Origin: Ignisphaera aggregans DSM 17230
GTDB lineage: Archaea; Thermoproteota; Thermoprotei_A; Sulfolobales; Ignisphaeraceae
Reading direction: 5' to 3'
Length of the DNA stretch: 64,000 nucleotides
Assembly: GCA_000145985.1 (NCBI GenBank)
Contig: CP002098.1
Location: 1,468,501 to 1,532,500 of the forward strand
Positions 4,409-19,625 of the stretch are shown here, piece by piece; the first letter of the stretch is position 1; every line of letters starts with the position of its first letter. The notes beneath the pieces were generated by a model that ran no database searches, was not told where the DNA came from, and worked only from the letters and a program-made list of their open reading frames with translations. A program made the position numbers and the translations under genes.

Positions 4409-4729
4409 CTATTCTAGTTCTGCTCTTAGCGAACCTCTGTTTACTAGAGATGTTACTATTCTCCAGAACTTATTCTCTGTTATCATAGATGTATCAAATC
4501 CTTGTTCCTCTAGATATTTTAGAACAGCCTCATAGAGTTCATCTATTGTGTATCTATTTATAGAACCACCAGAGATTTCCTTTATTGCTTCAATGATATC
4601 TGCATAACTTGGGAATTTTCTCTTCTTTTGAGATCTTCTCCTTCTCTCTATATTTTGTTCCTCATATTCCTCTATTTCCTGTAAGGCATCTCTTGGAATA
4701 TTCATTAAAGCTTTTTCGTATTCAGACAT
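4409..4729 (-). CDS. Small charged protein with winged-helix-like C-terminus, 106 aa
   Basis: The product begins with an acidic helix, then a very basic patch (IERRRRSQKKRKFPSY, about residues 27-42), then a helical domain (ADIIEAIKEISGG...IDELYEAVLKYLEEQG...FWRIVTSLVNRGSLRAELE) whose helix-helix-strand order would fit a winged helix. This is an inference from spacing, not a family match. It faces the helicase gene tail to tail and is separated from the next plus-strand gene by a promoter-sized gap. Confidence 0.7.
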   Translation of the reverse strand: MSEYEKALMNIPRDALQEIEEYEEQNIERRRRSQKKRKFPSYADIIEAIKEISGGSINRYTIDELYEAVLKYLEEQGFDTSMITENKFWRIVTSLVNRGSLRAELE

Positions 4730-4803
4730 ATTCTCGATATCTCCTACAGAATTTAAATACAGGTTTTGTTTAGGTATATATAGCTTTTGTATAATACGTT
4801 ATT

Positions 4804-5157
4804 GTGATAATTATGTTGGATGATAGAGATATTGAGCAATATCAGGCATATATATTGTATAGCAAGAATATTATAGATATAATTAAGAGAATTTCTAACT
4901 ATCTTAGTGGATGCAACAAGATGTTTATAGATATAGAGCTCAAAGAGATTTCACAACAAGTATGTGGAGAGAATATGCCTAGATATGTAGAGTTGAAGAG
5001 CTATGACGATGTCAATAAGCTTATTCTTGAGAGTGAAAATGGATATGGAATTATATTTAGAGTTCCATCACCCAAAGACAATGTTTATGCAATAGCATTC
5101 ATACCTATAAACAATCATAATAAGAATGTGATCCAGAGGTTGAAGAGAAGTGCCTAA
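4804..5157 (+). CDS. Hypothetical protein, 117 aa, coupled to a SecB-like gene
   Basis: The reading frame starts at GTG 4804, with an in-frame ATG at 4813 that may be the real start. The product is a mixed alpha/beta soluble protein with no membrane segment and two cysteines. I do not recognise a family. Its end overlaps the next gene by 8 bases (start GTG at 5150, stop at 5155-5157), which implies translational coupling and a shared task with the SecB-like protein. Confidence 0.65.
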   Translation: MIIMLDDRDIEQYQAYILYSKNIIDIIKRISNYLSGCNKMFIDIELKEISQQVCGENMPRYVELKSYDDVNKLILESENGYGIIFRVPSPKDNVYAIAFIPINNHNKNVIQRLKRSA

Positions 5158-5551
5158 TCTTGGGTTTAGATTAGATAGTATAAGAGCTGAGAGATATAGT
5201 TTTGATGTAGTTCCACAGCTAAACATAAATATGAATATAATGTTTGGAAAGCCCGAGAGGAAAGATGATGGTAGTTATATAATTGGATTTGTGATAAAGG
5301 TTGATTGTGTTCCTCCTATAGCTTCTATAGATATTAAGGGTATTGTTATAGTTACACCCATAAATGTTGATGAGTCTAAAAATCTTGAGGAACACTTTAA
5401 GAAAAATACTATTCCATATCCATTAATGTTAGCCGTCTATAGCTATACCCTTCCAATAATAGCACTACTTTCTAGAGAGCTAGGTATTCCTCCTCCAGTT
5501 CAGCCACCAGTTCAGCAACAGCAAGAGAAAAGAGTTGGTTATCATCTATAA
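5150..5551 (+). CDS. SecB-like small beta-rich protein, 133 aa
   Basis: The sequence pattern is that of the SecB-like fold. An ERYSF-type strand is followed by INMNIMFGKP, a long strand pair (GSYIIGFVIKVDC, IASIDIKGIVIV), a linker, YPLMLAVYSYTLPIIALLSRELGIPP and a Pro/Gln-rich tail (about residues 113-128). SecB proteins are export or antitoxin-associated chaperones; archaeal relatives exist but are poorly studied. The assignment rests on pattern, not on a database search. The gene overlaps the upstream unknown gene, and its 3' end overlaps the convergent transporter gene by 6 bases. Confidence 0.6.
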   Translation: MPNLGFRLDSIRAERYSFDVVPQLNINMNIMFGKPERKDDGSYIIGFVIKVDCVPPIASIDIKGIVIVTPINVDESKNLEEHFKKNTIPYPLMLAVYSYTLPIIALLSRELGIPPPVQPPVQQQQEKRVGYHL

Positions 5552-7063
5552 AAATGTTGCTAGATATAGCCATAGCATAGCAACTAGTATCTGTGAAGTT
5601 GTTGTTACTATTGCTATCTTTAGCCAAGAACTCCACTTTATTCTTATCTTACGTTTCTCAGTCATGGATACAGCTACTATATTTGCTGTTGAGCCTATAG
5701 GTGTATAGTTTCCACCAAAAACACCTCCAAAGAGAAGAGCGAAATATATCATGAATCCTACCATGCCAAGGCTGTTGAGGAATTGTGCTACAGGTGTAAA
5801 TGTTACTATAACGGATAGATTATCCAATACAGCTGAGAGGAGTGCTGAGCTTAGCAACATTATTGGTAAAAGCAGTGTCTGGCTATTAGCTGCTGAGAAT
5901 ACATATGCAAGTTTTGTCATAACACCTGTATATGTTAAGCTATAACTTAGTATGAATAGACATATGAAAAACATTAGGGATGACCAATCAACGCTTCTCT
6001 CAACATGTCTAGGAATATCTTCAAGAGGTATACCTGCTATGGATAGAGCTATAAATATATATGGTATAAATGCTAGGAATGAATGAGGATCTATTATCAT
6101 ATCCGAGACTCTGCTCAAGAAAGATGCAATATGATCGTTTAGTGATACCATTGCTATGAATAGAACAAGAAGGATTAAGCCATAGTATATTAACCTTCTT
6201 TTCCTTGAACCATTAAGTTCAATCTCATGGTGAGTAATATAGGTCTCAATAAGTTTTCGCTGTTTTATTAACCTATCTTTAATACTATCAATGTATTTTC
6301 TCATAACAACTAATGACAAAAAAAGTAGTACTACATAATCGAGAAACGATAGTGGGAGAGCATATCGTATAAATGTAGAGATATTCATCTTTGTAGTAAA
6401 TAGTAGGTAGACCCCTATAGGATTACCTATAGGGAGAGCAACACTTCCAGTATTTGTAGCTAGAACACCAAAGATTATTAAGGGCTCCACATCTATCTTT
6501 AGTATCAATCCTATCTCTAGAATAAGCATAACTATATAGATTATACTCGTAACTTCGTCAACTACTGCAGCTAGAGCTGTAGCAAGAAGGCCTACAAGTG
6601 CTATTAACATGTACACATTGCCCTTGCTAAGGTTTAGAATCTTTATTGAGAGATATCTAAATACTCCCATCTCCCTTAGAATACCAGCAAAGCTCATGGA
6701 ACCTATTAGGAAGAGTATCAAGTTCCATTCTATAGCATTGTGAATTAGTGATTGTGGTGATACAATAGATAGGAATATTATTATTACAATAGCAAGAATT
6801 GCTACACCTGTCCTCCACTCCATTTTTACTATAGTAGCTGCTATAACAAATAGAAATAGTGATAGGGCAAGACTCTGTATGTATATCATTGTGGGTGAGT
6901 TTATATCTATAGTGTGAGAACTAGTATTATTTCTCTCATAGATCCATGCATCAACTAGTTTTTTACCTATAGGATCGTTGCCAACTTTAATCATTGACAT
7001 TATGGAATAAGAGATAATAAACAGTATTATGTATATTATAATCATTTTGTATATTGTTTTCAT
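5546..7063 (-). CDS. ArsB/NhaD/CitT-type ion transporter, 505 aa
   Basis: This is an integral membrane protein with about 11-12 hydrophobic segments and a cytoplasmic charged loop near residues 255-290. Features of the ion transporter superfamily are AALAAVVDEVTSIIYIVMLI (about residues 162-181), the LATNTGSVALPIGNPIGVY segment and the repeat-related C-terminal SAVLDNLSVIVTFTPVA with GGNYTPIGSTANIVAV. These paired D-x-x/N-P motifs are typical of NhaD-type Na+/H+ antiporters and ArsB-type arsenite pumps; the sequence alone does not choose between them. No ars regulator or reductase is nearby. The gene stands alone on its strand. Confidence 0.85.
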   Translation of the reverse strand: MKTIYKMIIIYIILFIISYSIMSMIKVGNDPIGKKLVDAWIYERNNTSSHTIDINSPTMIYIQSLALSLFLFVIAATIVKMEWRTGVAILAIVIIIFLSIVSPQSLIHNAIEWNLILFLIGSMSFAGILREMGVFRYLSIKILNLSKGNVYMLIALVGLLATALAAVVDEVTSIIYIVMLILEIGLILKIDVEPLIIFGVLATNTGSVALPIGNPIGVYLLFTTKMNISTFIRYALPLSFLDYVVLLFLSLVVMRKYIDSIKDRLIKQRKLIETYITHHEIELNGSRKRRLIYYGLILLVLFIAMVSLNDHIASFLSRVSDMIIDPHSFLAFIPYIFIALSIAGIPLEDIPRHVERSVDWSSLMFFICLFILSYSLTYTGVMTKLAYVFSAANSQTLLLPIMLLSSALLSAVLDNLSVIVTFTPVAQFLNSLGMVGFMIYFALLFGGVFGGNYTPIGSTANIVAVSMTEKRKIRIKWSSWLKIAIVTTTSQILVAMLWLYLATFL

Positions 7064-7201: not shown

Positions 7202-9016
7202 CTAGTAATATAGATTTCTAATGGTGTTATATATAAGGTTAAAAGCTTCGATAATATTTAATGATGGTATTCCCAATCTAATACTTCTAAGAGCTATATA
7301 GACATTATATCTATTATTTATATGGATTGGAGCTAGATTAAGTCTATATGCCTTGATTAAATAGTCTAATCCATCATCAAGTACTATGGCGTTTCTTTTC
7401 TTTGTATTATCAATACATGCTCTATATAAACTATATTTATCTGGCCCCACTCCCCAGTCTCTACCTATAACTATATCTATATACCTTTCTAAGCCATATT
7501 TAGCAAGAAAACGCTGTATAATGTTTGAAGCCTGTTTTGATGCTATACATATTGGGAAATATCTATGTATCCTCTCAACATCTGTAACATGTATCAAGAG
7601 CTTAGCTTTATCCAATACACTCTCTTCATATTTCTCAATGATTTTCGAGGCCTCGTTATATATATCACGATTTTGGTTCCACAGTCTATGTAGACCTCTT
7701 CTAATGGATTCCCATCTATATAGATATCCCCTAGATACAAGCTCTCTTTTAATAGCTGTCCAATCTATTGGAAGTTCTGCTATAGTTCCATCAAAATCCA
7801 TTATTAGAACCACATCCCTAGATTTTACTGTATCTAGAAATCTTTTTATCCATATAGAGCATTGTTGTTGGGAGGAAGCTATATAGCTATTCCATTTTTG
7901 TTTCTCTCTACCAAATCTCTTTATAGCTGTAACTATCTGAAGAAATGATTTGCCTAGATCCATTATATCCATATCCGTCTTCACAGGATTTCTAAGGGCG
8001 TCTAAAGACATTTTAAGCCATATTCTTAGTGATTTAGGTATATATCTAAGTCCATCTAGAACCCATGTAAATACACCTATAGATCCATATAAACTCTTCA
8101 CCAATCCTCTTGCTCTTTCATATCCATAGACATAGAGAACTGTTGCAATAGCCGGGAAATGGAATCCTAGATGTATAGATAGATCTATGCTTCCCCAGAA
8201 CTTTGGATTTATCTCAATGACGTAGTAATCTCCTGTTTCAGGATCCATCCTCGTCTCAATCATTATATGTCCACTCCAATTCAGTATTTCAATAGCTTTT
8301 CTACCAATTGATATAAGTGATGGGTCATAGACATATCCTCTAGCCTCAAGACTAGCACCACCTATAGGCTCATACTCAATAACTCTCTCATGAGTAAACT
8401 CTAGAAGTGGTTTACCCATATATGAAACTGTATAGTAACCTCTTCCAACACCCTCAACATATTCCTGGATAATGCATGGAGCTCTAGATCTAGCTTCTCT
8501 AATAGCCGAGTCATAGTCAAGATGATAACTAGGGTTTGAGGCATCTCCCAAACCCTTTACAACAAGTGGTGGTTTTAAAGAGCTAATTTCGTCTATAGAA
8601 TCATTCCTATATAGAACTTGTCTTGGAAATGGTAATACACTACTCAATCTTTCATAGATTTTAACTTTATTAGATGCAAATAAAATATCTTCATACCTAG
8701 GAGCAACAACCTTTACACCTCTATCCTCAAAAACATCTCTATATTTGCTAAACATCAGGGTATCAATAAAATCTACTGGTACAACCCCTATACAGCCATG
8801 TCTATATGCAACTGAAGCAACAGCTAAAACCCATTTAACACTATTTCTCTCAACATTAAACATATATCTACTATCAAAATATCGTGATGCTAGAAAAGGA
8901 TGAAAGGTATGGAAAACACCAATGGTTTTAAACATTAGAATCTTCTTAATAGATTTTGCTATAGCTATAGACTTTCTCGATGCTGCTGATGCTATCACTA
9001 TACATTCTGTATCCAA
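7202..9016 (-). CDS. ATP-grasp ligase fused to a HAD phosphatase, 604 aa
   Basis: Residues 1 to about 330 form an ATP-grasp module: a Rossmann-like pre-domain, LVVKGLGDASNP (nucleotide loop), CIIQEYVEGVGRGYY, and the metal-binding end MIETRMDPETGDYYVIEINPKFWG. The relatives are carbamoyl-phosphate synthase-like ligases that join a carboxylate to an amine. After a basic linker, residues from about 395 form a HAD phosphatase: DFDGT (motif I), CIASKQ (motif II), DKYSLY (motif III lysine) and LDDGLDYL (motif IV). No signal peptide is seen, so it acts in the cytoplasm. It is divergent from a deacetylase gene with only 54 bases between them, which suggests a shared promoter region and a cell-surface glycan or modified sugar as substrate. 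Substrates cannot be read from the sequence. Confidence 0.85.
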   Translation of the reverse strand: MDTECIVIASAASRKSIAIAKSIKKILMFKTIGVFHTFHPFLASRYFDSRYMFNVERNSVKWVLAVASVAYRHGCIGVVPVDFIDTLMFSKYRDVFEDRGVKVVAPRYEDILFASNKVKIYERLSSVLPFPRQVLYRNDSIDEISSLKPPLVVKGLGDASNPSYHLDYDSAIREARSRAPCIIQEYVEGVGRGYYTVSYMGKPLLEFTHERVIEYEPIGGASLEARGYVYDPSLISIGRKAIEILNWSGHIMIETRMDPETGDYYVIEINPKFWGSIDLSIHLGFHFPAIATVLYVYGYERARGLVKSLYGSIGVFTWVLDGLRYIPKSLRIWLKMSLDALRNPVKTDMDIMDLGKSFLQIVTAIKRFGREKQKWNSYIASSQQQCSIWIKRFLDTVKSRDVVLIMDFDGTIAELPIDWTAIKRELVSRGYLYRWESIRRGLHRLWNQNRDIYNEASKIIEKYEESVLDKAKLLIHVTDVERIHRYFPICIASKQASNIIQRFLAKYGLERYIDIVIGRDWGVGPDKYSLYRACIDNTKKRNAIVLDDGLDYLIKAYRLNLAPIHINNRYNVYIALRSIRLGIPSLNIIEAFNLIYNTIRNLYY

Positions 9017-9070
9017 TGATGGGACACCGCTATTAATAAACCTCAGAAATATAGTGTTAAATACTTTTGT

Positions 9071-9877
9071 GTGGTGTCTATGGAGAAGATGTTACTAGTA
9101 TTGACACATGATGTTGACTGGAGTAGGAGAGGCCCCTCTGAGTTACATGTGATTCAAAGGTTTGATAGATTTTCATTTGAGGATAAGCTTAGATTCTTTA
9201 CATTGAGGGAGAATCTATATGATGGTATAAGAGATATTATGGAGGTAGAGGAGAGATATGGAATCAAATCAACATTCTTCTTCAGACCATTCTACGATGA
9301 TAATACCTCTATTGAGCTTTATAGTGATATTATTTCAGAACTAGTTAGAAGGGGCTGGGAAATAGGGCTTCATGCAAATAATACAAGTTCTATTGAGTCT
9401 ATTTCTCAGGAAAAGAAAGAGATTGAGAGGATATGTGGATGTAGAGTTAGGAGTATGCGAGCTCATTATCTAAGAATAGATATTTCAACTATAGGAAAGC
9501 TTAGTGCTATAGGTTTAGAGCTTGATAGTAGTATATGTCTATCAAGAGATGGTCTATCTATAGAGAGCTCAGGATGTTTCCTAATCGATAATGTTATTGA
9601 GTTACCAATAACAATTATGGATACATATATGTTTACATATTGGAGGATTAGTCCTGATAAAGTATTTGAGGTATTGTTAACAAGTCTTAGAAAATTATAT
9701 GAATCTAGTATTAGAATAGCGACAATTTTATGGCATACAAATAGTATAAGGATGATCGGTGGTAGAGAGTATCTAAGGTTTATTGAAGATTTATTGAGAT
9801 ATGAATGGATTGAACCTATAAGGGTTATTGATATAAGGAGTCTTAGATATCTATGTACTAATAGGAATATTATCTAA
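9071..9877 (+). CDS. Polysaccharide deacetylase-like (NodB-type) hydrolase
   Basis: The 268-residue protein shows NodB-fold motifs: THDVDW near the N-terminus in place of TFDDG, FFFRPFYDD, the GLHANNT segment in the position of the metal-binding histidines, RAHYLR, and LWHTNS near the end. These enzymes remove N-acetyl groups from sugars using a divalent metal. There is no signal peptide, so the substrate is probably a cytoplasmic sugar or lipid-linked precursor. GTG codons at 9071 and 9074 or ATG at 9080 could start it; the last leaves a compact N-terminus. It is paired head to head with the ATP-grasp/HAD gene. Confidence 0.83.
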   Translation: MVSMEKMLLVLTHDVDWSRRGPSELHVIQRFDRFSFEDKLRFFTLRENLYDGIRDIMEVEERYGIKSTFFFRPFYDDNTSIELYSDIISELVRRGWEIGLHANNTSSIESISQEKKEIERICGCRVRSMRAHYLRIDISTIGKLSAIGLELDSSICLSRDGLSIESSGCFLIDNVIELPITIMDTYMFTYWRISPDKVFEVLLTSLRKLYESSIRIATILWHTNSIRMIGGREYLRFIEDLLRYEWIEPIRVIDIRSLRYLCTNRNII

Positions 9878-9882
9878 ACTCG

Positions 9883-11217
9883 CTAGAATGTCTTTATCAA
9901 ACCGCTTCTTATTGCTATATCCATATATTTTCTAGCTCTATAGATATGCTCCCTAATTTCATATTCAAGTTCATTTCTAGATAGTTTTCTTCTTGCGTAT
10001 CCAAGCTCCATTGCTTTCTCTGCAACAGCTATAGCCTCTCTAACATACATCTCTTGTTCCTCCATACTAGGTATAATTCTATCTTCACTAAGACCTGTTT
10101 CCTCAGTATACTTCGCAATTGCATATGCAGCAGCTATAAACATTTCATCAGTCATCTTCCTAGCTCTAACAGTTAGAATACCTCTAAATACAGCTGGAAA
10201 TCCAAGACTATTATTTACCTGGTTTGGAAAATCAGATCTACCTGTAGCAACAATTCTTGCACCAGCCCCCTTCACTTCCCAAGGCCATATCTCTGGGATG
10301 GGATTTGAACATGCAAATACAATTGCATCTCTATTCATCTTCGATACCCACTCCTTCTTAATGACCCCTGGACCTGGTCTAGACATGGCTATAACAACAT
10401 CAGCTCCATCCATAGCTTCAGCTATTCCACCTCTAACATTGGGACTCGTCTCTATAGCTAATTGATACTTCCATGGATTATACCTCTTGATATGCTCCAT
10501 ATCCTCTCTCTCTGGATAGATAATGCCTTTAGTATCAACAGCAATAATATTCTTAGGATTTGCACCAACAATCTTTAGATATCTATAGATAGCTATATTA
10601 GCAGCACCAGCACCTATAAGAGCTATTCTCACATCCCTAATATTTTTACCAACAATCTTCAAAGCATTAATTAGAGCTGCAATTGTTACTAAAGCAGTTC
10701 CCTGTTGATCATCATGCCATACAGGTATGTCGAGAATCTCCTGAAGTCTCTCAAGAATATAGAAACACTTAGGGCTCTCAATATCCTCAAGATTTATAGC
10801 ACCAAAGCTATATTCCAATGATTTTACTATCGATATAAATCTATCTGGATCCCTCTCATTGATTACTAGAGGAATTGCATCAACACCTCCAAGATATTTG
10901 AATAAAAGAGCTTTTCCCTCCATAACAGGTAGAGCTGCAAGAGGACCAATATTACCTAATCCCAGCACTCTTGAACCATCACTAACAACAAGAGCGGTAT
11001 TACATCTATTAGTATATTCACATGAAATATCCTCCCCCATCATAATAGCATCATATATAGCTTTACTAGTAGCTGCAACACCAGGTGTATACCAAATAGA
11101 AAAATCGTTGATATTCTCTATAGGTACCTTTGGCACAACCTCTATCTTACCCCTATAAAGCTTATGCATGGATAAAGCCTTAGCATTAAGCTTATCATCT
11201 AAAGCCATAGACATCAC
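9883..11217 (-). CDS. Malic enzyme (malate dehydrogenase, decarboxylating)
   Basis: This is a short archaeal-type malic enzyme of about 440 residues. It has IENINDFSIWYTPGVAA, the KYLGGVDAIPLVINERDPD region, the metal/malate site DIESPKCFYILE with HDDQQGTALV, the dinucleotide loop IGAGAANIA, and the C-terminal VFACSNPIPE and TGRSDFPNQVNNSLGFPAVFRG. It converts malate to pyruvate and CO2 with NAD(P)+, linking C4 acids to pyruvate. GTG, ATG and ATG starts (11217, 11214, 11208) lie close together. A TTTATAT box is seen just upstream. The gene ends 5 bases after the convergent deacetylase gene. Confidence 0.93.
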   Translation of the reverse strand: MMSMALDDKLNAKALSMHKLYRGKIEVVPKVPIENINDFSIWYTPGVAATSKAIYDAIMMGEDISCEYTNRCNTALVVSDGSRVLGLGNIGPLAALPVMEGKALLFKYLGGVDAIPLVINERDPDRFISIVKSLEYSFGAINLEDIESPKCFYILERLQEILDIPVWHDDQQGTALVTIAALINALKIVGKNIRDVRIALIGAGAANIAIYRYLKIVGANPKNIIAVDTKGIIYPEREDMEHIKRYNPWKYQLAIETSPNVRGGIAEAMDGADVVIAMSRPGPGVIKKEWVSKMNRDAIVFACSNPIPEIWPWEVKGAGARIVATGRSDFPNQVNNSLGFPAVFRGILTVRARKMTDEMFIAAAYAIAKYTEETGLSEDRIIPSMEEQEMYVREAIAVAEKAMELGYARRKLSRNELEYEIREHIYRARKYMDIAIRSGLIKTF

Positions 11218-11296
11218 ACAGCATTAATCTATGTCTAGAACTCTAGATATAAATCTACATCCTTGAATAATGGTGAGAGGTATTGAGTATATATCC

Positions 11297-11346
11297 TCAC
11301 TGCGGGGCAACATCATCTAATCAGTCTCGGAGATCACAGTCATCTA
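11297..11346 (-). ncRNA. Candidate C/D box guide RNA, about 50 nt
   Basis: This is a locally G+C-rich island in an A+T-rich gap. Read on the minus strand it has a TAGATGA box (11340-11346), a guide-sized stretch, a perfect CTGA (D', 11321-11324), then TTAGATGA again (C', 11313-11319), a second guide (TGTTGCCCCGCAG) and GTGA in the D position (11297-11300). Archaeal C/D RNAs have RUGAUGA and CUGA boxes in this order and about this length. Here both C boxes and the terminal D box each deviate by about one base from the core, so the call is tentative. No rRNA or tRNA target could be tested. Confidence 0.3.
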
Positions 11347-11431
11347 AAACATTAATTATGTGTAGAAGATATTAAGTTTAGATGTACTTAAATTCAAAAG
11401 CTATATATGAAGATAATGTAATATAGCGTCT

Positions 11432-12376
11432 ATGGCGATACATATGAATAATCATAAAATCTTTAGAATGTTGTTGACTATATCCATAGCAGTTCTATTG
11501 CTATACATTGTCTCTATATACATGATGCTAAAGGCTTCTAATAACTCTAATAGCTATACAAATATCGATGTCTATATAGATAGCTATGGAATTATGCATG
11601 TATCTATGGAGATAAAACCAATTGCTACTGGTATGACAACTATCCATCTTCCAATACCTCCAGTTATAGCATCAATAGATGTTGCTGTTGATGGTAGAAC
11701 TATACCATTTATCATATGTGATAATGAGAGCTACATATGTGTACCTATAGAGGAGGGCATATCCATAATTAAAATAAACTATATTGCCAATACCTCATTA
11801 TCACAAGGAATCTTCGAAGTTATTGTCAAACCATATACAAATGTTTCTCTCACCATAGCCCCAAATATAATTCTATTGGGTATCCCAACAAACATATTTA
11901 AAGGGCCAGAGATAAACAATGGGAATATGACTATAGTATTCCTTGTTACAGAGCCCTACACAATTAGATACATGGTTAGGAGCTCTATAGAGATACCATC
12001 TACATCTACTACCTTCACTACATCTATACCTCAATATGGTGAAGCTCCAAAGACATCAACGACATCTCTAGATATTCACAGCATTATTATAGTTATAGCT
12101 GTTGTTATCGCCATAGCTATAATAATGCTCTACATCTTTATCAGAAGAAGACATGTCCATGGCGAAGAATCTGAAGTGCTTGGGGATATTGATACAATGA
12201 TTATAAAGAGTCTTGAGAAAAAGGGTGGTTCTGCTTTTCAGAGTGAGTTACAGAGGGCTATCCCAATACCAAAAACAACTCTTTGGAGGCATATCAAAAA
12301 ACTTGAGAGGATGGGTATAGTTAGAATTGAGAAGGTGGGTAATCAGAACAGAGTTGTTTTGGTTAAGAGGCGCTAA
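11432..12376 (+). CDS. Membrane-tethered winged-helix regulator with outer sensor domain
   Basis: The 314-residue protein has an N-terminal membrane helix (about residues 9-31), an extracytoplasmic beta-rich domain (about 45-185), a Ser/Thr-rich stalk (about 185-212), a second membrane helix (about 216-238), an Arg/His-rich stop (FIRRRHVHGEE) and a cytoplasmic winged helix (about 247-314: DIDTMIIKSLEKKGG, ELQRAIPIPKTTLWRHIKKL, ERMGIVRIEKVGNQNRVVL). This layout suits a one-component regulator that senses something outside and binds DNA inside. The outer domain resembles the one in the protein at 14344-15246, two genes downstream. The start is GTG/ATG-proximal, with ATG at 11444 as an alternative. 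Confidence 0.85.
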   Translation: MAIHMNNHKIFRMLLTISIAVLLLYIVSIYMMLKASNNSNSYTNIDVYIDSYGIMHVSMEIKPIATGMTTIHLPIPPVIASIDVAVDGRTIPFIICDNESYICVPIEEGISIIKINYIANTSLSQGIFEVIVKPYTNVSLTIAPNIILLGIPTNIFKGPEINNGNMTIVFLVTEPYTIRYMVRSSIEIPSTSTTFTTSIPQYGEAPKTSTTSLDIHSIIIVIAVVIAIAIIMLYIFIRRRHVHGEESEVLGDIDTMIIKSLEKKGGSAFQSELQRAIPIPKTTLWRHIKKLERMGIVRIEKVGNQNRVVLVKRR

Positions 12377-12460
12377 CTTGATTTATCTTCTATTCAAAGT
12401 ATATGAAACACTAGTTTCACGGTGTACTATATAAGGCTATACAACCTATCTTATACTTAG

Positions 12461-14278
12461 GTGGGTAGACTCATGAAAAATAACACAAGTCTGAGTATGA
12501 GAGGTGTAATGGGGTTTGCAACAATATTGGTGATAGTTATAGGAATACTTAGTGCTATAACCCTTCCAATAACATTGTATGTAAAAACAGTTGCGGAAGA
12601 GACAAGCACAACAACTACCACAACCAATACAGAGAACAGAGGTGTTCTAGTAGCACAGCTAATGCTTATAAGAAACATGCTATCTAGGATGCTGAACATC
12701 AATATATCTACAGAGCTTAGACAAGCAATAGAGAACTTCTTAACCAAAACACAGAATGTTTCAGCCTCTCTACCAGTAGATCAGCTAAAGGCATATATAG
12801 ATGAGGGACACAACCTATTGGGGCAGGTAGCTTCAGAGATTAGGAATATGTATAGCTATAGACATGAGGTTGAGGAGCGATATGTACAGCAACTCAGGTT
12901 GATGCTTGAGAATAGGATTAGGCAATGTGCAAGACTATACAATGTTTCTGAAGAGTATATAGACAAGATATTAATGAATATGTCAAGTGCTAAGAATGTA
13001 AAAGATTTTGCAAAAGCCTTAGCAGAGATGAATAAGATTGTTGCTATGTATAGATATAGAGCATTTGGAGATAAGCTTGTTGAGATAAATATAAAGGGTA
13101 TTGAGAGAAATGTCAAGGGACTTGATAAAGCATATAAAGAGCTTTCAAAAGCTGAGGAAATTCTCAATAAAACTATTGAAAAGCTTAGAGATGTAAACGT
13201 CTCTCAAGTAGCTGTTGAAAATCTTGAGGAGGCTATTGAGAAGATATCCCTTGCCAAGGAGTTGATAAGAAATACTACAAAGGTAATCGAGGAAGAGGGT
13301 ATAGATATTAAGAAGGCTCTCAATAAGAGTCTAGAGAAACTTGCGTCAAGGGTTAACGATACAATTGAGGAGCTTAGAGAAGAGCTCAAGGAGATGCTGG
13401 ATAACGCTATAAAGATTAATGATACAAGGCTTATGGAAGACATTACCCAGCTTCTCCAGAAGCTAGACAACCTAAGTAGAATGATTGTAACAAATAATGT
13501 ATCTATATATCAGGCTCTCAGCATATTGGCAAAGATAAAAGTTGAGGCTAAAGCTATTGAGAAAATGCTTGAGTTTAGCGTTAGAGTAATGCCTGCTGTT
13601 GATAAGGCATATAGTGTAGCTCTAGAGAGAGCTGAGAAGCTTCTAAATGAAACAAAAGAGATGGTGGAGTTTATAGAGAATAAGAGTATTGTATGTATAC
13701 AAACAGTCTCTCCACCACCTCCAATAGTATGTAGATATAACATCACAATGGTTCTAGAGAAGGCTAGAAAGGACATAGAAATAGCTGAGAAGCTTATAGA
13801 GAATGCAACTAAGCTCTATGAAGAAGGTAAAAAGGTTGAAGCGTTACTGACTCTAAACAGAGCTAATGCTATATTGAGTATGGTTAGAGCACAGCTAATG
13901 CCTATATACATGTTGTTAAAGATGAGTGAACATAGAGAAATAAAAGTTCCAACAATAACACCTCCAAAACCTGGGAACATTACTAGTGGGAAAGATATTG
14001 AGAAAAGGTTGGAGGATCTTGAAAAGAGGCTGAATGAAACTATAGAAAAGCTGAACAATTTGAGCAACAAGCTTCAGAGAACTGGTGAAAGATCTAAAGC
14101 ATTAATGTATATAGTTAGTGGGCTAAGAATTAAGGTAGCAGAGGTACAGAAGCTTATAGAGAATTCCAAGAGATATCTGTCTATGGGTAACGAGGATCTG
14201 GCATTGATAGGTATTGCTAATGCTGAATCACTATTGAGTAGCATAGAAGAGACGCTAAACAATATAGAAGAGTCATAG
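12461..14278 (+). CDS. Membrane-anchored coiled-coil surface protein, 605 aa
   Basis: An N-terminal membrane helix (about residues 14-40) is followed by a Thr-rich linker (SSTTTTTT-like, about 46-56) and then some 500 residues of charged helix with heptad spacing. Examples are LRDVNVSQVAVENLEEAIEK, LEKRLEDLEKRLNETIEKL (written in part) and many NxS/T sites. A Pro-rich break with two cysteines (CIQTVSPPPPIVC, about 409-421) splits the coil, and the cysteines could form a disulfide outside the cell. No C-terminal membrane helix is seen. It sits between two genes with related outer domains, so a structural or signalling partner role is likely. I recognise no named family. Confidence 0.85.
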   Translation: MGRLMKNNTSLSMRGVMGFATILVIVIGILSAITLPITLYVKTVAEETSTTTTTTNTENRGVLVAQLMLIRNMLSRMLNINISTELRQAIENFLTKTQNVSASLPVDQLKAYIDEGHNLLGQVASEIRNMYSYRHEVEERYVQQLRLMLENRIRQCARLYNVSEEYIDKILMNMSSAKNVKDFAKALAEMNKIVAMYRYRAFGDKLVEINIKGIERNVKGLDKAYKELSKAEEILNKTIEKLRDVNVSQVAVENLEEAIEKISLAKELIRNTTKVIEEEGIDIKKALNKSLEKLASRVNDTIEELREELKEMLDNAIKINDTRLMEDITQLLQKLDNLSRMIVTNNVSIYQALSILAKIKVEAKAIEKMLEFSVRVMPAVDKAYSVALERAEKLLNETKEMVEFIENKSIVCIQTVSPPPPIVCRYNITMVLEKARKDIEIAEKLIENATKLYEEGKKVEALLTLNRANAILSMVRAQLMPIYMLLKMSEHREIKVPTITPPKPGNITSGKDIEKRLEDLEKRLNETIEKLNNLSNKLQRTGERSKALMYIVSGLRIKVAEVQKLIENSKRYLSMGNEDLALIGIANAESLLSSIEETLNNIEES

Positions 14279-14343
14279 GTGTATCCTATACACAACTACA
14301 TATTTTAATCTTTTTAACTTGTTATAGTCAAATCAAATAAAAT

Positions 14344-15246
14344 ATGTGTTACCTAGGGTTGAACCACATGGATAGATTGAGGAGTATAGATGTAGTAATC
14401 TATCTATCCTTAGCATTGTTGATACAAATACTATCTGTATATATAAACAATGTATTGGTTTTTGGATCCGGTGTATCAGACATAGATGTGTTTATAAATA
14501 GCTATGGGGTTGCCAACGCCGTCCTACAAATAGATCTAGATATGGGGCTTAACAATATAACACTTCCTGTAGCACCAATAGAAGAATCTATAAGTATTAG
14601 TTGCAGTGGTCATGAACTTCCATTTGTATATGAGAATGGGGTGCTATACATCGTATCAGATAGATCATGTAGTGCTATGATAAGCTATATTGCAGATGTA
14701 TCGTATAGTAACAATACATTCACTCTAGATATAGCTACACCATATAAAGTTGTTCTCACCATACCGAGAAACATATTGCTAATATCTATGCCAAACAATA
14801 TAGTGTCTATAGATGAGAGAGATAATAATACTATAATAACATTCCTAGGCCCTTCAACAATAATATACACAATTCTACCTACTACAACAACCCCTATATC
14901 AATCCCCATAGACACACAGACACAGATTTCCACATCAGTACAAATATCTTCATCAACCATACCCACAACATCTACATCTACCATCGAGACCCATACAACC
15001 CAGGTAGTAACAACATCTCTAGTTATAACTACTATGCTAACAACATCTGTTAGCCAAAGTGTGTCCTCTCCACAAATATCTATTCAATCAACATCTGTAT
15101 CACCAACAACTTCGACAACGATGCAGGGAGCAACCACAACAGCAACACAATCTCCATCTCTATTGTATCAATATCTAGTACCTCTAGTGATAATCATAGT
15201 TATTGCTGTTGTGGCTATAGCGGTAGTGTTTATCTTGAGGAAATAA
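14344..15246 (+). CDS. Outer-domain paralogue of the tethered regulator, without DNA-binding part
   Basis: The 300-residue product has an N-terminal helix (about residues 13-33), an outer domain aligning by eye with that of the gene at 11432-12376 (shared IDV.I.SYG, ..ITLP..P and the Y.ADVS...FTLD/PY segment), a long Ser/Thr-rich stalk (about 180-272) that is probably glycosylated, and a C-terminal helix ending in LRK. It ends right after the membrane, where the paralogue carries a winged helix. It may be a co-receptor, decoy or sensor partner. An in-frame ATG at 14371 could be the true start. The end overlaps the convergent Nre gene. Confidence 0.82.
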   Translation: MCYLGLNHMDRLRSIDVVIYLSLALLIQILSVYINNVLVFGSGVSDIDVFINSYGVANAVLQIDLDMGLNNITLPVAPIEESISISCSGHELPFVYENGVLYIVSDRSCSAMISYIADVSYSNNTFTLDIATPYKVVLTIPRNILLISMPNNIVSIDERDNNTIITFLGPSTIIYTILPTTTTPISIPIDTQTQISTSVQISSSTIPTTSTSTIETHTTQVVTTSLVITTMLTTSVSQSVSSPQISIQSTSVSPTTSTTMQGATTTATQSPSLLYQYLVPLVIIIVIAVVAIAVVFILRK

Positions 15247-16480
15247 ATTGGTCAATCCTTCTCTCTTTCAACATTTTTCTAATTATATATGATTTTTCTG
15301 CCCATGTCCTTGAACCTACGACACTATATCTATCTAAGATATTTAGTGCCTCCCTAATTGTTTCTACAACAAATGGCTTATCTCTATACATCTCCCTAAG
15401 CTGTTCTCTCACAAACCACACACCTATAGGTATATCGAAACCAGGGTAGATCTCTCTCAAAACAACAGCTGTAGCCTTCCTACCTATTCTCTCAAGATAT
15501 TCAGCTGTTGCTAGCCTAGCTGCATAGTAGCATCCACCTATAGCTGCATAGTCCCTTCTATTAGCTGTATAAAGCTCGTAGTCACCCTCAATAACAACTG
15601 TATCTCCATACATATTCCATGTTGATCTCGGGAACCATGCCTCCATCCACTCAAAGCTCCATTCACCGGGTATTAGTATCGATACAAATAGGTTTTTGTG
15701 TATAGATCTGACAAACACATATATCTTGTCTATCTCTTGGTAATACTTAATCCTATTCTCTATCAAAAACTTTGAGATAGTGTCGTCAACAGCTGTTATA
15801 GACCATCTTGTGGGTACAAGTCTCCTATTCTCCTTCCTCCCAAGAGCACCAACACTAAGGAGACGCTGAATGACGGTAACAGGTGTATTGCTTCTATATA
15901 GCTCTACTATAGCTATAGATGCTTTTGCATCTGCATCACTATAGAATTTCTCTATAACCCTAGAACTAGCTCCAGATCCCACAACCCTAAACTCCTTCAA
16001 TGGAGCTCTAGGTCCTATGGGAGGCTCAAACTCGCTTAGATTAAAACCCTTTGGGGGTTTCTCCAAATGCATCTCGATATCCACAGGCTTTAGGCTTAGG
16101 ACGACTTCGTGTATAGAACTAACAAATCTATTCTCAATATCTCTAACCATAACACGTGTTCTACCCAGGATAAGGCTCATCCTCATATCAATGATATCTT
16201 CAAGTGGTAAAGAACTCCATTGTTCGGGGAGATCATATATAGATGTATCACCAGATATGGGGGGTGTGAGAGGACCTATATATACATATGGATAACCAAT
16301 TCTACCGACGAATACCGAGGGTGGAGATGAACCTAGGAGTTCAGTAGAACTTCTCATCTCAATAGCTTTACTCCATAGACGAGTTCTAGTAATAATTGGG
16401 CAGTATGCTTTTCCACACAGATATCTAGCTCCTCTACACAATAAGCATAGCTTTGGATCTATATTGCTATCCTTCCCCAA
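15230..16480 (-). CDS. nreA: Archaeal Nre family DNA repair protein
   Basis: The N-terminus has the family zinc motif C-x2-C-x4-LCG-x4-CP (about residues 13-28: CLLCRGARYLCGKAYCP). It is followed by the conserved SSTELLGSSPPSVFVGRIGYPYVYIGPL and DLPEQW segments and the C-terminal block of the family (ALGRKENRRLVPTRWSITAVDD, GGCYYAARLATAEYLE). Nre proteins are found throughout archaea and act in repair of alkylation damage with PCNA. The C-terminus reads RRIDQFISSR, which could be a degenerate PCNA-interacting motif, though the standard QxxLxxFF is not present. The length (416 aa) is typical. It converges on the surface protein gene with a 17-base overlap. Confidence 0.88.
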   Translation of the reverse strand: MGKDSNIDPKLCLLCRGARYLCGKAYCPIITRTRLWSKAIEMRSSTELLGSSPPSVFVGRIGYPYVYIGPLTPPISGDTSIYDLPEQWSSLPLEDIIDMRMSLILGRTRVMVRDIENRFVSSIHEVVLSLKPVDIEMHLEKPPKGFNLSEFEPPIGPRAPLKEFRVVGSGASSRVIEKFYSDADAKASIAIVELYRSNTPVTVIQRLLSVGALGRKENRRLVPTRWSITAVDDTISKFLIENRIKYYQEIDKIYVFVRSIHKNLFVSILIPGEWSFEWMEAWFPRSTWNMYGDTVVIEGDYELYTANRRDYAAIGGCYYAARLATAEYLERIGRKATAVVLREIYPGFDIPIGVWFVREQLREMYRDKPFVVETIREALNILDRYSVVGSRTWAEKSYIIRKMLKERRIDQFISSR

Positions 16481-16538
16481 GTTTTAACCCTATAGAAATA
16501 CTTTTCTTCTAGAAGATATTAACACTTCCCTTCTAGAA

Positions 16539-16916
16539 TTAATCGTGTGGTAGTGGAATATAGCGTGTTGTACAACTACATAGAAGCTTTTTATGTAATT
16601 CCGTTACACGTTCAGAATCTCCATAGACAATAACTGTCAGGATACATTCACCTGCTATATGGTGATGAGAATGACTTACTATTATATCTCTATAATCCTC
16701 AAATACCTCATCTATCTTAGGCTCTCCACCCTTATTACGAACAATGAATATACCTCTACATATATGTTTCTTTGTAAAATGTTTGTATTCTTCGATATAG
16801 CTTCTAATAGCTTCTTCAACAAGACGAGATCTATCTAAGCCAAAGTTTTTCGCTATTTCATCTAGTGCCATAGCTATATCGCTATTAATAGATATGCCAA
16901 ATCTCCTCTTAGCCAA
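16539..16916 (-). CDS. nikR: NikR-type ribbon-helix-helix metal regulator
   Basis: The 125-residue protein has an N-terminal ribbon-helix-helix (RRFGISINSDIAMALDEIAK...DRSRLVEEAIRSYIEEY) and a C-terminal ACT-like metal-sensing domain. Histidines and cysteine in IIVSHSHHHIAGEC (residues 78-91) align with three NikR nickel ligands. The position of the fourth, His76 of E. coli NikR, appears to hold an acidic residue here (Glu73), so metal choice may differ. It overlaps the ABC permease gene by 8 bases and is the last gene of the transporter operon. It most likely represses that operon through the palindromes at 18803-18843. Confidence 0.85.
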   Translation of the reverse strand: MAKRRFGISINSDIAMALDEIAKNFGLDRSRLVEEAIRSYIEEYKHFTKKHICRGIFIVRNKGGEPKIDEVFEDYRDIIVSHSHHHIAGECILTVIVYGDSERVTELHKKLLCSCTTRYIPLPHD

Positions 16917-17799
16917 AGACCTTCAACCTCTTTAGTATATATACTAGGAGATATATAAACAGTACTATAATCCCTATAGCACCTGAGGGAGCTAGATTCA
17001 TATCTATAGATATCTTCAGCCCCAATAAACTCGATAATAGAGCTATAAAGATACTTATTATGAGGACCATATAGGAGCTTTCAGATATAGTCATAGCGAT
17101 TTGAGCTGGTAGGAGTATTAATACATGTTCTAATACAAATCCAACAATCTTTAATAGTGCTACTGATGCAATAGCTACAATGGTATACAGAGCATAGCTA
17201 TAGATCCAAGGCCTGCTCAACCCTATCTTTACATACTCTCTATCTATACCCATATACACATTAACACTATATGTAGCTATAGCAATAAGCATAGCTATTA
17301 TACATACAGCTCCAAGGAGATAAACATCATTCCATGTTGATAGCAGAGGATCTCCTAAGATAATACTCCATAGATTATAGCTAACACTATATCTTGTCAA
17401 AACATGGTATAGAGCTATAACACTACCAGAAGATGATAGTGCAACCATGGCTGAAGTAGCTATATCTGGATCAACACCCTTCTCTATGGCATAACCAACA
17501 ATATATATTAGAATCATAGAGATGATTATAGACCATATAAATTCGTTAAAAATCCCAATGCTTCTACTAAGAACTATTGATATAGCAATAGCAAATAATG
17601 CTGTATGGGGACCCTCTGTTGCAAGGAAGTAGAATCTTCTTGCTGCAATCAATGGGCTTAGAACACCATAGATAGTAGCAGAGAGAATAAATATTAATAG
17701 CCATACAATAGGTGTTGTAAAAACCATATATATTGTAAGTATTAGTAGGATAGAGAAGAGGAGTAATAGGATATATCTATTATTCACATTCTCACCCAT
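16909..17799 (-). CDS. ABC-3 family metal transporter permease (ZnuB-like)
   Basis: The 296-residue product has eight to nine hydrophobic segments with the family's AARRFYFLATEGPHTALFAIAIS segment near residues 52-74 and the LLILLPAQIAMTIS-type stretch (about 228-240) seen in ZnuB/MntB permeases. It forms the membrane channel for Zn, Mn, Fe or Ni with the ATPase and binding protein encoded next to it. It overlaps the binding protein gene upstream by 16 bases and the regulator gene downstream by 8, so the three are translated from one message. Confidence 0.9.
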   Translation of the reverse strand: MGENVNNRYILLLLFSILLILTIYMVFTTPIVWLLIFILSATIYGVLSPLIAARRFYFLATEGPHTALFAIAISIVLSRSIGIFNEFIWSIIISMILIYIVGYAIEKGVDPDIATSAMVALSSSGSVIALYHVLTRYSVSYNLWSIILGDPLLSTWNDVYLLGAVCIIAMLIAIATYSVNVYMGIDREYVKIGLSRPWIYSYALYTIVAIASVALLKIVGFVLEHVLILLPAQIAMTISESSYMVLIISIFIALLSSLLGLKISIDMNLAPSGAIGIIVLFIYLLVYILKRLKVFG

Positions 17800-18782
17800 C
17801 TTCTATACAGTAGAACTATTGCTATGAGAATTGCTATGGCTATTATGATATAGAGTAGAACTCTAACATCAACATTATAAAGATTTGCTGAAGGCTTTGT
17901 AGAAGATGTTGAGAGGCTTTGAATAGAAAGCTTTGATACATATTCAAGTGTATCGATAATTGAGTTAGTTGCTACTATATCTGGTAATACTAGGATAGGC
18001 CTATTGTATTTCTCCGACATTTCAATCAATAGACTATATGCACTAGAACTATTTGTAGTAAGTATAATGACATTTGTATTATTTTTCAATATGTTTTCAG
18101 CCATAATAACATCGTTTGGTATTATGGGAGCATCGTGTTCCTTCTGGATAATAAATACATTTCTTATTCCAAGCCAATAACCTATATATTGTAACACAAG
18201 TGTATCGAGTATAGCTATATATTTATCAAGCTTTGGAGTATTCACCGATATATTTCTAATTTCATCTATCAAAGAATCTATCTTAGAGCTATAGATATTG
18301 CTACACTCTGGTCTGGTAGATACGAGGATATTTCTAAGGTATTCTAGGAACGCTATATAGTTGTCTGGATAAAATAGTAGTGCATGGTAGTTGGGTTGAC
18401 CTGTTGCTGGATTGGTTAATATAGTGATGTTTGGAATAGACGGAATCTCTATTAGCTTCGCCTTCAACTCCCCCTCATCAACAAGCTCTCTTATCCTTAT
18501 CTCAAAGTGTGTATGGGCTGTAGAGATAATTATATCTGCCTTCCTAAGATTTTCTACATCAGAGGGTGTAAGCATATATTCATGGGGATCTATACCAGGT
18601 CTTAATAGATATATAATTGAGTCGTTCCCACATAGTATACGTGATAGATCTTTGTAGAGCCATGGAAATGTTATAACTATGGTCAATCCATTATCATTGT
18701 TGGCTAAACCTAGAGATATTGCTACACTAGTATTCATAGTGATTAACAGTGTTATTAGTATGGATATAACTGTTATTCTCAT
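17784..18782 (-). CDS. ZnuA-like metal-binding protein of ABC transporter, C-terminally anchored
   Basis: The open frame extends to 18842, but I choose the ATG at 18780-18782 because it begins a clean signal sequence (MRITVISILITLLI) and frees the operator region. Family metal sites are visible: GIDPHEYMLTPSDV (first histidine), ADIIISTAHTHFE, NYHALLFYPDN (second), KEHDAPIIPND (third) and VLPDIVATN (fourth, acidic). A C-terminal helix (LLYIIIAIAILIAIVLLYRR) would hold it to the membrane on the outside, in place of a lipid anchor. It is the first gene of a binding protein-permease-nikR operon and shares a promoter region with the divergent ATPase gene. Confidence 0.88.
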   Translation of the reverse strand: MRITVISILITLLITMNTSVAISLGLANNDNGLTIVITFPWLYKDLSRILCGNDSIIYLLRPGIDPHEYMLTPSDVENLRKADIIISTAHTHFEIRIRELVDEGELKAKLIEIPSIPNITILTNPATGQPNYHALLFYPDNYIAFLEYLRNILVSTRPECSNIYSSKIDSLIDEIRNISVNTPKLDKYIAILDTLVLQYIGYWLGIRNVFIIQKEHDAPIIPNDVIMAENILKNNTNVIILTTNSSSAYSLLIEMSEKYNRPILVLPDIVATNSIIDTLEYVSKLSIQSLSTSSTKPSANLYNVDVRVLLYIIIAIAILIAIVLLYRRWVRM

Positions 18783-18802
18783 AGATATTACCGCAAATGT
18801 TA

Positions 18803-18843
18803 TGTGCACAGAAAATTTATAAGCTTTACTAGAGCTGTGCACA
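18803..18843. promoter_or_regulatory. Divergent promoter with two identical TGTGCACA palindromes
   Basis: TGTGCACA occurs at 18803-18810 and again at 18836-18843. Extended to 12 bases (18800-18811 and 18835-18846) the two form an inverted repeat with one mismatch. Between them, TTTATAA at 18816-18822 can serve as TATA box in both directions. Each palindrome then falls between the TATA box and the expected start site of one transcript. This suits a repressor blocking the binding protein operon (minus strand) and the ATPase gene (plus strand) together. The NikR-type protein encoded in the operon is the obvious candidate, which is an inference. Confidence 0.75.
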
Positions 18844-18857
18844 TTAGGAGAGCTACA

Positions 18858-19625
18858 GTGTTGCTAGAGACAAGAAAATTGACGATAGGATATGGAAAGC
18901 CTCTGGTTAGAGATATAGAGCTATCTCTTGATAGAGGAGAGCTATTACTAGTTATGGGTCCTAATGGCGCTGGTAAAACAACATTATTAAAAACCTTAGC
19001 AGGACTTTTAACACCTTTAGATGGGCATATATATATTGATGGTGTAGAGGTTACCCATAATCCAAAGAGTGTTGGGAGATATATTGGCTATCTACCCCAA
19101 CTCTCATTGTACAACACATCAATTTTTCCAATAACAGTATATGAATTTGTTAAGAATGCTTATGAGATCTATCTAAAATCTCTCGATATTCGGCTATCTA
19201 AAAATGAAATTGTTAGAAGGGTAGCAGAGGTATTGGATATGGTTGGAATAGATAGGGAGTTATGGGGTAAAAGTATATGGAAATTATCTGGTGGTCAGAG
19301 ACAGAGAGTTTTATTAGCTAGAGCATTAGTGCATGACCCATTGATACTATTGTTAGATGAACCCTTCTCATCTATAGATCCAGAGGGTAGGAAGGTATTT
19401 GCAGATATGATAATAGATTTAAAGCGAGATAAACTCATTATCTTAACATGTCATGACCCTATAATCTTAGTTAATCAAAGTGATAATATAATGGTTATTG
19501 GCAGAGGAAGCTATGTTATAGGGAAACCCGGTGAGGTGCTGAGGGATGAAATTCTAAGGAAATTCTATGGTGATAGCATTTTCGGTGTAGAGAAACATAT
19601 CCATATATATGATTTTCACAGCTAA
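18858..19625 (+). CDS. Metal ABC transporter ATPase (ZnuC-like)
   Basis: The frame is open from a GTG at 18804, but that codon lies inside the operator. I choose GTG 18858 because AGGAG stands 7 bases upstream and the protein then begins directly with the first strand (VLLETRKLTIGYG). Walker A is MGPNGAGKTTLL, the signature is LSGGQRQRVLLARAL, Walker B is ILLLDEPFSSID and the switch histidine is in ILTCHDP. It powers the metal permease encoded on the other strand. Its C-terminal region contains His-rich EKHIHIYDFH, common in zinc/manganese transporters of this group. Confidence 0.92.
   Translation: MLLETRKLTIGYGKPLVRDIELSLDRGELLLVMGPNGAGKTTLLKTLAGLLTPLDGHIYIDGVEVTHNPKSVGRYIGYLPQLSLYNTSIFPITVYEFVKNAYEIYLKSLDIRLSKNEIVRRVAEVLDMVGIDRELWGKSIWKLSGGQRQRVLLARALVHDPLILLLDEPFSSIDPEGRKVFADMIIDLKRDKLIILTCHDPIILVNQSDNIMVIGRGSYVIGKPGEVLRDEILRKFYGDSIFGVEKHIHIYDFHS

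Follow-up and report, generated by a model that had tools for sequence, protein, structure and literature searches.

Three adjacent genes on the forward strand of Ignisphaera aggregans, here called R, CC, and D, were analysed within a 64,000-nucleotide stretch of its genome (the window, positions 1468501-1532500 of a single contig of 1,875,953 bp). R and CC are proposed to be a surface regulator-target pair present across the phylum Thermoproteota, in which R would act as a membrane-tethered one-component regulator of CC, probably as an activator (probability about 0.74). Judged from sequence, the regulatory link between the two is well supported: it draws on the architecture of the proteins, their genomic linkage, a predicted operator before CC, the spacing and phasing of the operator sites, and their covariation with the recognition helix of R. 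The coordinates of all features are given in Table 1.

In R, an outer input domain and a DNA-binding domain were found in one polypeptide. The AlphaFold2 model (predicted local distance difference test score [pLDDT], 84.9) placed helices at residues 7-36 and 215-247, on either side of an outer domain with a pLDDT mostly above 90, and a winged helix at residues 252-310; both domains were modelled with high confidence. The orientation was deduced from the winged helix being inside and the serine/threonine-rich (S/T-rich) linker outside. R matched the Pfam family HTH_24 at 1.3e-6, above the family cut-off, and the closest solved structures of its winged helix were helix-turn-helix (HTH) domains of the Lrp/AsnC type. 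The winged helix also resembled DUF7343 (PF24034; E value, 1e-4), but its score of 22.6 bits was below the curated cut-off of 27.6 bits, and no paper mentioning DUF7343 was found in our literature search, which covered open-licence papers only, so that absence there is no proof. With outer input and a cytoplasmic DNA-binding domain in one membrane protein, R has the composition of a membrane-tethered one-component regulator. This architecture (membrane helices, outer domain, and cytoplasmic winged helix) supports the preliminary description of this DNA, in which R had been called a tethered DNA-binding receptor. In a structure search, the solved folds nearest to the outer domain were 8j9c (2e-5), 1z1w (1e-4), and 6c26_1 (2e-3), that is, folds of the M1 aminopeptidase N-terminal domain and Ost1/ribophorin I. 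Unlike M1 aminopeptidases, R lacks a peptidase domain; it matched no peptidase family, its translation contained no HEXXH motif, and the identity was about 10%. The likeness is one of fold only, and homology is not established. A viral or plasmid origin of the genes was rejected, as no phage-family match was obtained for R or D and no plasmid match was found.

The protein encoded by CC, described earlier as a 605-residue coiled coil with one membrane helix between R and D, was confirmed as such by heptad analysis and structure prediction. Its single membrane helix is N-terminal, 63% of its residues fell in heptad-like windows compared with 26% in shuffled sequences, and the model was all helix (pLDDT, 73). 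Twenty N-x-S/T sequons were counted where 5.3 were expected, and this roughly fourfold excess was common to relatives defined by their position beside R; it suits an outer, N-glycosylated protein. The two cysteines of the loop CIQTVSPPPPIVC, invariant in 11 Ignisphaera CC proteins, could possibly close a helical hairpin turn through a disulfide. CC shows the features by which the family is defined here, namely an N-terminal membrane helix, a helical outer part, and a match to the Ignisphaera CC profile. CC is likely a cell-envelope stalk or spacer, all-helical and probably N-glycosylated. SlaB-type S-layer stalks and tetrabrachion are archaeal coiled-coil surface stalks with a C-terminal anchor. 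Unlike SlaB-type stalks, CC has its only membrane helix at the N terminus, and a structure search with the CC model gave no significant match among solved structures; the sequence matches there were mostly designed coiled coils. The C-terminal end of CC varies within the genus: an extra coiled coil is present in the window (13970-14278), and among the relatives compared (L074, L078, L081, L084, and L086) several carry a short beta-domain-like segment and others carry nothing. The CC gene of L091 (2890-4901) is broken into two open reading frames (ORFs) by a frameshift or a sequencing error.

Scanning species genomes with an R alignment gave 47 loci in Desulfurococcales, Thermofilales, Thermoproteales, Geothermarchaeota, Nezhaarchaeota, Bathyarchaeota, and Nitrososphaeria. 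The R family was detected in 189 of 200 sampled Thermoproteota genomes, a count that may include some generic winged-helix matches. Most full-length R genes adjoin a gene for a protein of 300 to 1000 residues whose single membrane helix is N-terminal and whose body is rich in heptads. When CC-like genes were judged by this architecture alone, within loci fetched for holding R, 72 of 112 R genes had such a neighbour; of the 1252 remaining genes there, 65 did (Fisher test, 4e-52). Of the 85 CC-like genes in these loci, 72 adjoin R. With the Ignisphaera CC profile, CC proteins linked to R were recovered from other families, down to about 1e-5; in the same loci this profile gave no confident match away from R, except for unlinked CC genes that had been fetched as CC. 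When a CC profile was searched against the 200 whole genomes, nearly all strong matches (E < 1e-9) were beside R, with G007 as the clear exception. By these comparisons, the R-CC pair is conserved across Thermoproteota. The pair is found in several orientations (36 with R first, 22 with CC first, 20 convergent, and 9 divergent), so co-transcription alone is not sufficient to account for the linkage. Since a surface location is predicted for R, CC, and D alike, the linkage might instead reflect shared surface-gene islands without any regulation. This we regard as the most improbable of the explanations weighed, because the immediate neighbours of R are specifically enriched and phased operators are found at CC, not at R or other neighbours.

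The predicted operator lies between R and CC (genome position 1480904), and the 1.88-Mb genome contains no second perfect match to TGAAAC-N4/5-GTTTCA. The GTG start codon of CC is at 12461, and the CC transcript is probably nearly leaderless. At least 10 of 11 palindrome positions were matched in 10 of 14 Ignisphaera-type CC promoters and in 1 of the 344 promoters of other genes, not counting three in which the same site was met again from a divergent gene. The element precedes CC in most Ignisphaera genomes, also in those where CC and R are unlinked. In other families, each CC promoter has two to four half-sites (GTTYCA or TGRAAC). Over 52 pairs, 1.69 of these six-mers were counted on average per CC promoter and 0.15 per R promoter, compared with 0.14 in 683 other genes. 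Three or more core sites were present in 56% of CC promoters and 2% of others (p = 2e-28), and the reversed motif showed no such enrichment. Autoregulation of R through the same operator was rejected, as R promoters are at background. Some of the convergent 600-residue genes in Thaumarchaeota (L135, L140, and L142) carry the operator too. Among the 76 perfect palindromes listed from 200 genomes, 13 are within 2.5 kb of R, where 0.37 would be expected; as a plain search this is a weak detector alone, with matches in 72 genomes and matches of the reversed control in many. Besides position 1480904, the near-matches inspected in I. aggregans, which were not exhaustive, are mostly inside genes and indicate no wide regulon.

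The half-sites are spaced by one or two helical turns (direct repeats, 10/11 and 22/23 bases; inverted repeats, 9/10 and 19-21 bases). In 26 of 38 promoters, the distance from the first base of the last GTTYC to that of a TATA-like box is 13 to 14 bases, and the arrays end 7 to 8 bases upstream of the TATA box, adjoining the transcription factor B recognition element (BRE). Because the sites end beside the BRE, it is also conceivable that R represses CC, with bound R blocking TFB/TBP until a surface signal releases it. Most of the array, however, is upstream of the core promoter, the usual place of archaeal activators, and the bases between array and TATA box are unlike a strong BRE. In addition, EarA of the Euryarchaeota, which works through repeats placed before a weak BRE, activates its target (PMC5512572, PMC13286277). 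Repression is therefore considered unlikely, though it deserves more weight than the other alternatives.

The recognition helices of R fall mainly into two classes, P-K/R-x-x-x-W-R (W) and P-K-S/T-T/P-L-Y-R (Y), and the operator class differs between them. W-class pairs carried GTTYCA in 55 cases and TTCCC in 1, the other 18 being without a clear operator, whereas Y-class pairs carried TTCCC in 9 cases and GTTYCA in 1, with 2 unclear (p = 2.7e-9 for the association). Four Geothermarchaeota contigs (L122, L130, L131, and L145) each contain one pair of either class, each with the matching operator. In L234 (promoter of 4573-5601), an R with the helix PRSTAHR stands beside a CC-like gene whose promoter repeats TTTCTCGA at a spacing of about one turn, which may represent a third operator class. 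It is mainly because operator class follows recognition-helix class that R itself is named as the binder. Another, soluble factor could bind the CC operator, with R linked for some other reason, such as binding of CC at the surface by its outer domain. The persistence of the operator where R and CC are unlinked and its absence from R promoters would suit such a factor. This explanation is nevertheless improbable, since operator class tracks the helix of R even between two pairs in one genome and perfect sites cluster near R.

Several observations weigh against the proposed regulation of CC by R. In much of Ignisphaera the two genes are not linked, and 37 W-class R genes had no CC-like neighbour by the criteria used, some of them on contig ends. 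Some genomes have several R paralogues, any of which might be the binder. No clear operator was found in 18 of 74 W-class pairs and 2 of 12 Y-class pairs, and in six pairs with overlapping R and CC none was present before R either. Sites that end at the BRE also suit repression. Moreover, the operator classes were set after part of the promoters had been viewed, and closely related genomes do not count as independent cases; even so, the Y class is drawn from several families.

Table 1. Features of the R-CC-D region (window coordinates)
Feature	Position	Strand	Description
Gene R	11432-12376	+	314 amino acids (aa); outer beta domain and short S/T-rich linker between two helices, then cytoplasmic winged helix; read as membrane-tethered one-component regulator
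R outer domain	11555-11977	+	Residues 42-182, all-beta; among solved folds, closest to the M1 aminopeptidase N-terminal domain
R winged helix	12185-12361	+	Residues 252-310, Lrp/AsnC-like HTH; recognition helix PKTTLWRHIKKL, W class
Predicted CC operator	12404-12419		Perfect palindrome TGAAAC-ACTA-GTTTCA, between R and CC
CC TATA box (TATATAA)	12428-12434	+	8 bases downstream of operator; read from sequence; spacing conserved across the phylum
Gene CC	12461-14278	+	605 aa; N-terminally anchored extracellular coiled-coil protein, rich in N-glycosylation sequons
CC loop CIQTVSPPPPIVC	13694-13732	+	Residues 412-424; two invariant cysteines
Gene D	14344-15246	+	R paralogue, 300 aa; R-type outer domain, long S/T-rich stalk, C-terminal membrane helix, no winged helix

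Two further observations were made at R loci. The R gene of L133 (8004-8903) is broken into two ORFs by a frameshift or a sequencing error. In L186 (4374-5219), L181 (6306-7121), and L235 (3852-4637), a second surface protein of 261 to 281 aa, with N- and C-terminal membrane helices and many sequons, is encoded beside R; the copy in L186 has a complete operator of three sites and is possibly another target.

The third gene, D, is an old paralogue of R. With R as query, D was found in the same genome (E value, 2.2e-17), with 34% identity across residues 4-227 of R; with D as query, the value was 4.2e-18. The outer-domain profile matched D at 8e-46 when D was included in it and at 2e-33 when it was built without D. 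D has no winged helix, as its sequence ends RK after the last membrane helix. The three ORFs on one strand thus stand as first described, including the outer beta-domain shared by R and D and the winged helix confined to R. The preliminary description had gone further and proposed a three-gene unit of receptor, spacer, and decoy that arose by local duplication. The genes are indeed adjacent and on the same strand, the outer domains are clearly homologous, and CC and D are also adjacent in G002 and G008. Nevertheless, although each of the three genes is found throughout the genus, the order R-CC-D was found in none of 40 relatives, the outcome that had been named beforehand as speaking against the triplet, so among the genomes sampled only this one has the arrangement. 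The genes are often distant or on separate contigs, and are usually scattered where all three exist (G005, G006, and G007); the other recurring adjacent pairs are R-CC in G003 and G020 and CC-R in G040. Six Ignisphaera genomes carry a D-type gene, in most cases not linked to R. The D proteins of the five genomes other than this one cluster together, which does not support a local duplication. The tree of D and R is only partly resolved, with the window's R on a long branch and its own D and R unplaced. A three-gene operon was rejected, as gene order is not conserved, and the three are probably not one simple transcript, since CC has its own TATA box and operator in the 84-base gap after R. The triplet as a functional unit is thus very doubtful. 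Of the two roles suggested for the coiled coil, that of a partner was retained, whereas that of a spacer within the sensor gave way to regulatory target of R, in view of the promoter operators.

In three Ignisphaera genomes (L077, L080, and L083; about 8,000-12,800), D follows a conserved series of genes, among them those for a DUF4350-like protein and two more membrane proteins. Downstream of D in the window (15230-19625) are genes for a 416-aa protein, a putative NikR-like regulator, and an ABC transporter; the order of this block is kept in G001 and G003, where R precedes it too, making it a syntenic anchor for R. Another three-gene set, in L102 (4786-8088), comprises a CC-like gene, a gene for a 274-residue protein with N- and C-terminal membrane helices, and an R-like gene; the middle gene did not match the R outer-domain profile. 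On the minus strand of the window, a 604-residue ORF at 7202-9016 appears, as judged by eye, to join an ATP-grasp-like part to a HAD-like part.

We infer a mechanism in which R itself is the binder and its effect is activating. R would sit in the membrane with its M1-N-domain-like beta domain outside and its winged helix inside. R subunits would bind, as an array at the membrane, the half-sites that precede the weak BRE/TATA of CC at intervals of about one helical turn, and bound R would activate CC, most likely by recruiting TBP/TFB. Activation is favoured over repression by the position of the array before a poor BRE, an arrangement shared with EarA (PMC5512572, PMC13286277). A surface state would be sensed by the outer domain, and R would match the supply of CC to it; CC itself is the simplest candidate for that state, since it is the most constant partner of R. 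D, which has the outer domain of R but no winged helix and would be unable to signal, could bind the same surface partner. Tentatively, R and CC may even form a closed surface homeostat through most of Thermoproteota, in which the outer domain of R reads the amount or loading of CC, R arrays on the membrane-facing side of the DNA, which would explain the one-turn spacing of the sites, and the same contact is competed for by D. We consider this possible but not probable.

ArnR and ArnR1 of Sulfolobus acidocaldarius are membrane-bound one-component activators of flaB (PMC6396743). Like them, R would be an archaeal membrane-bound HTH regulator of a surface structure, and ArnR boxes are paired inverted repeats (TCGAC-N5-GTCGA) upstream of BRE/TATA (PMC6396743). 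ArnR and ArnR1 have an N-terminal HTH, HAMP and sensing domains, and two C-terminal membrane helices (PMC6396743), whereas R has one helix on either side of its outer domain and a C-terminal winged helix, its target differs, and CC promoters carry GTTYCA or TTCCC arrays and not TCGAC-N5-GTCGA; R is thus not of the ArnR type. The bacterial transmembrane activators CadC and ToxR also combine an outer sensing domain with an inner winged helix in one polypeptide and bind at the membrane, but with an N-terminal OmpR-type winged helix, one membrane helix, and an outer C-terminal domain of another fold (PMC5430869). The winged helix of R is C-terminal and closest to the Lrp/AsnC HTH, which places it outside this group. 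EarA is similarly a winged-helix regulator with several hexamer repeats before a poor-BRE promoter; unlike R, it is not described there as membrane-bound, its hexamer is TACATA, and its target is the archaellum operon (PMC5512572, PMC13286277). Within the literature searched, no paper described the R-CC pair, which agrees with the earlier remark that no described system of this composition was known.

The pair suggests a previously undescribed signalling line, predicted from sequence comparison, in which one protein leads from the cell surface to DNA. In archaea without many two-component systems, surface sensing is little known, and those few membrane-bound regulators that have been studied act on pili and archaella. 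For the R family, a target and an operator are now predicted, together with an apparent recognition code, and the CC family is marked as phylum-wide extracellular coiled-coil proteins that are probable envelope parts. The in-phase spacing of the sites suits a regulator that reaches DNA from the membrane side. If the homeostat were true, it would be a very old and widespread archaeal feedback line from surface to promoter.

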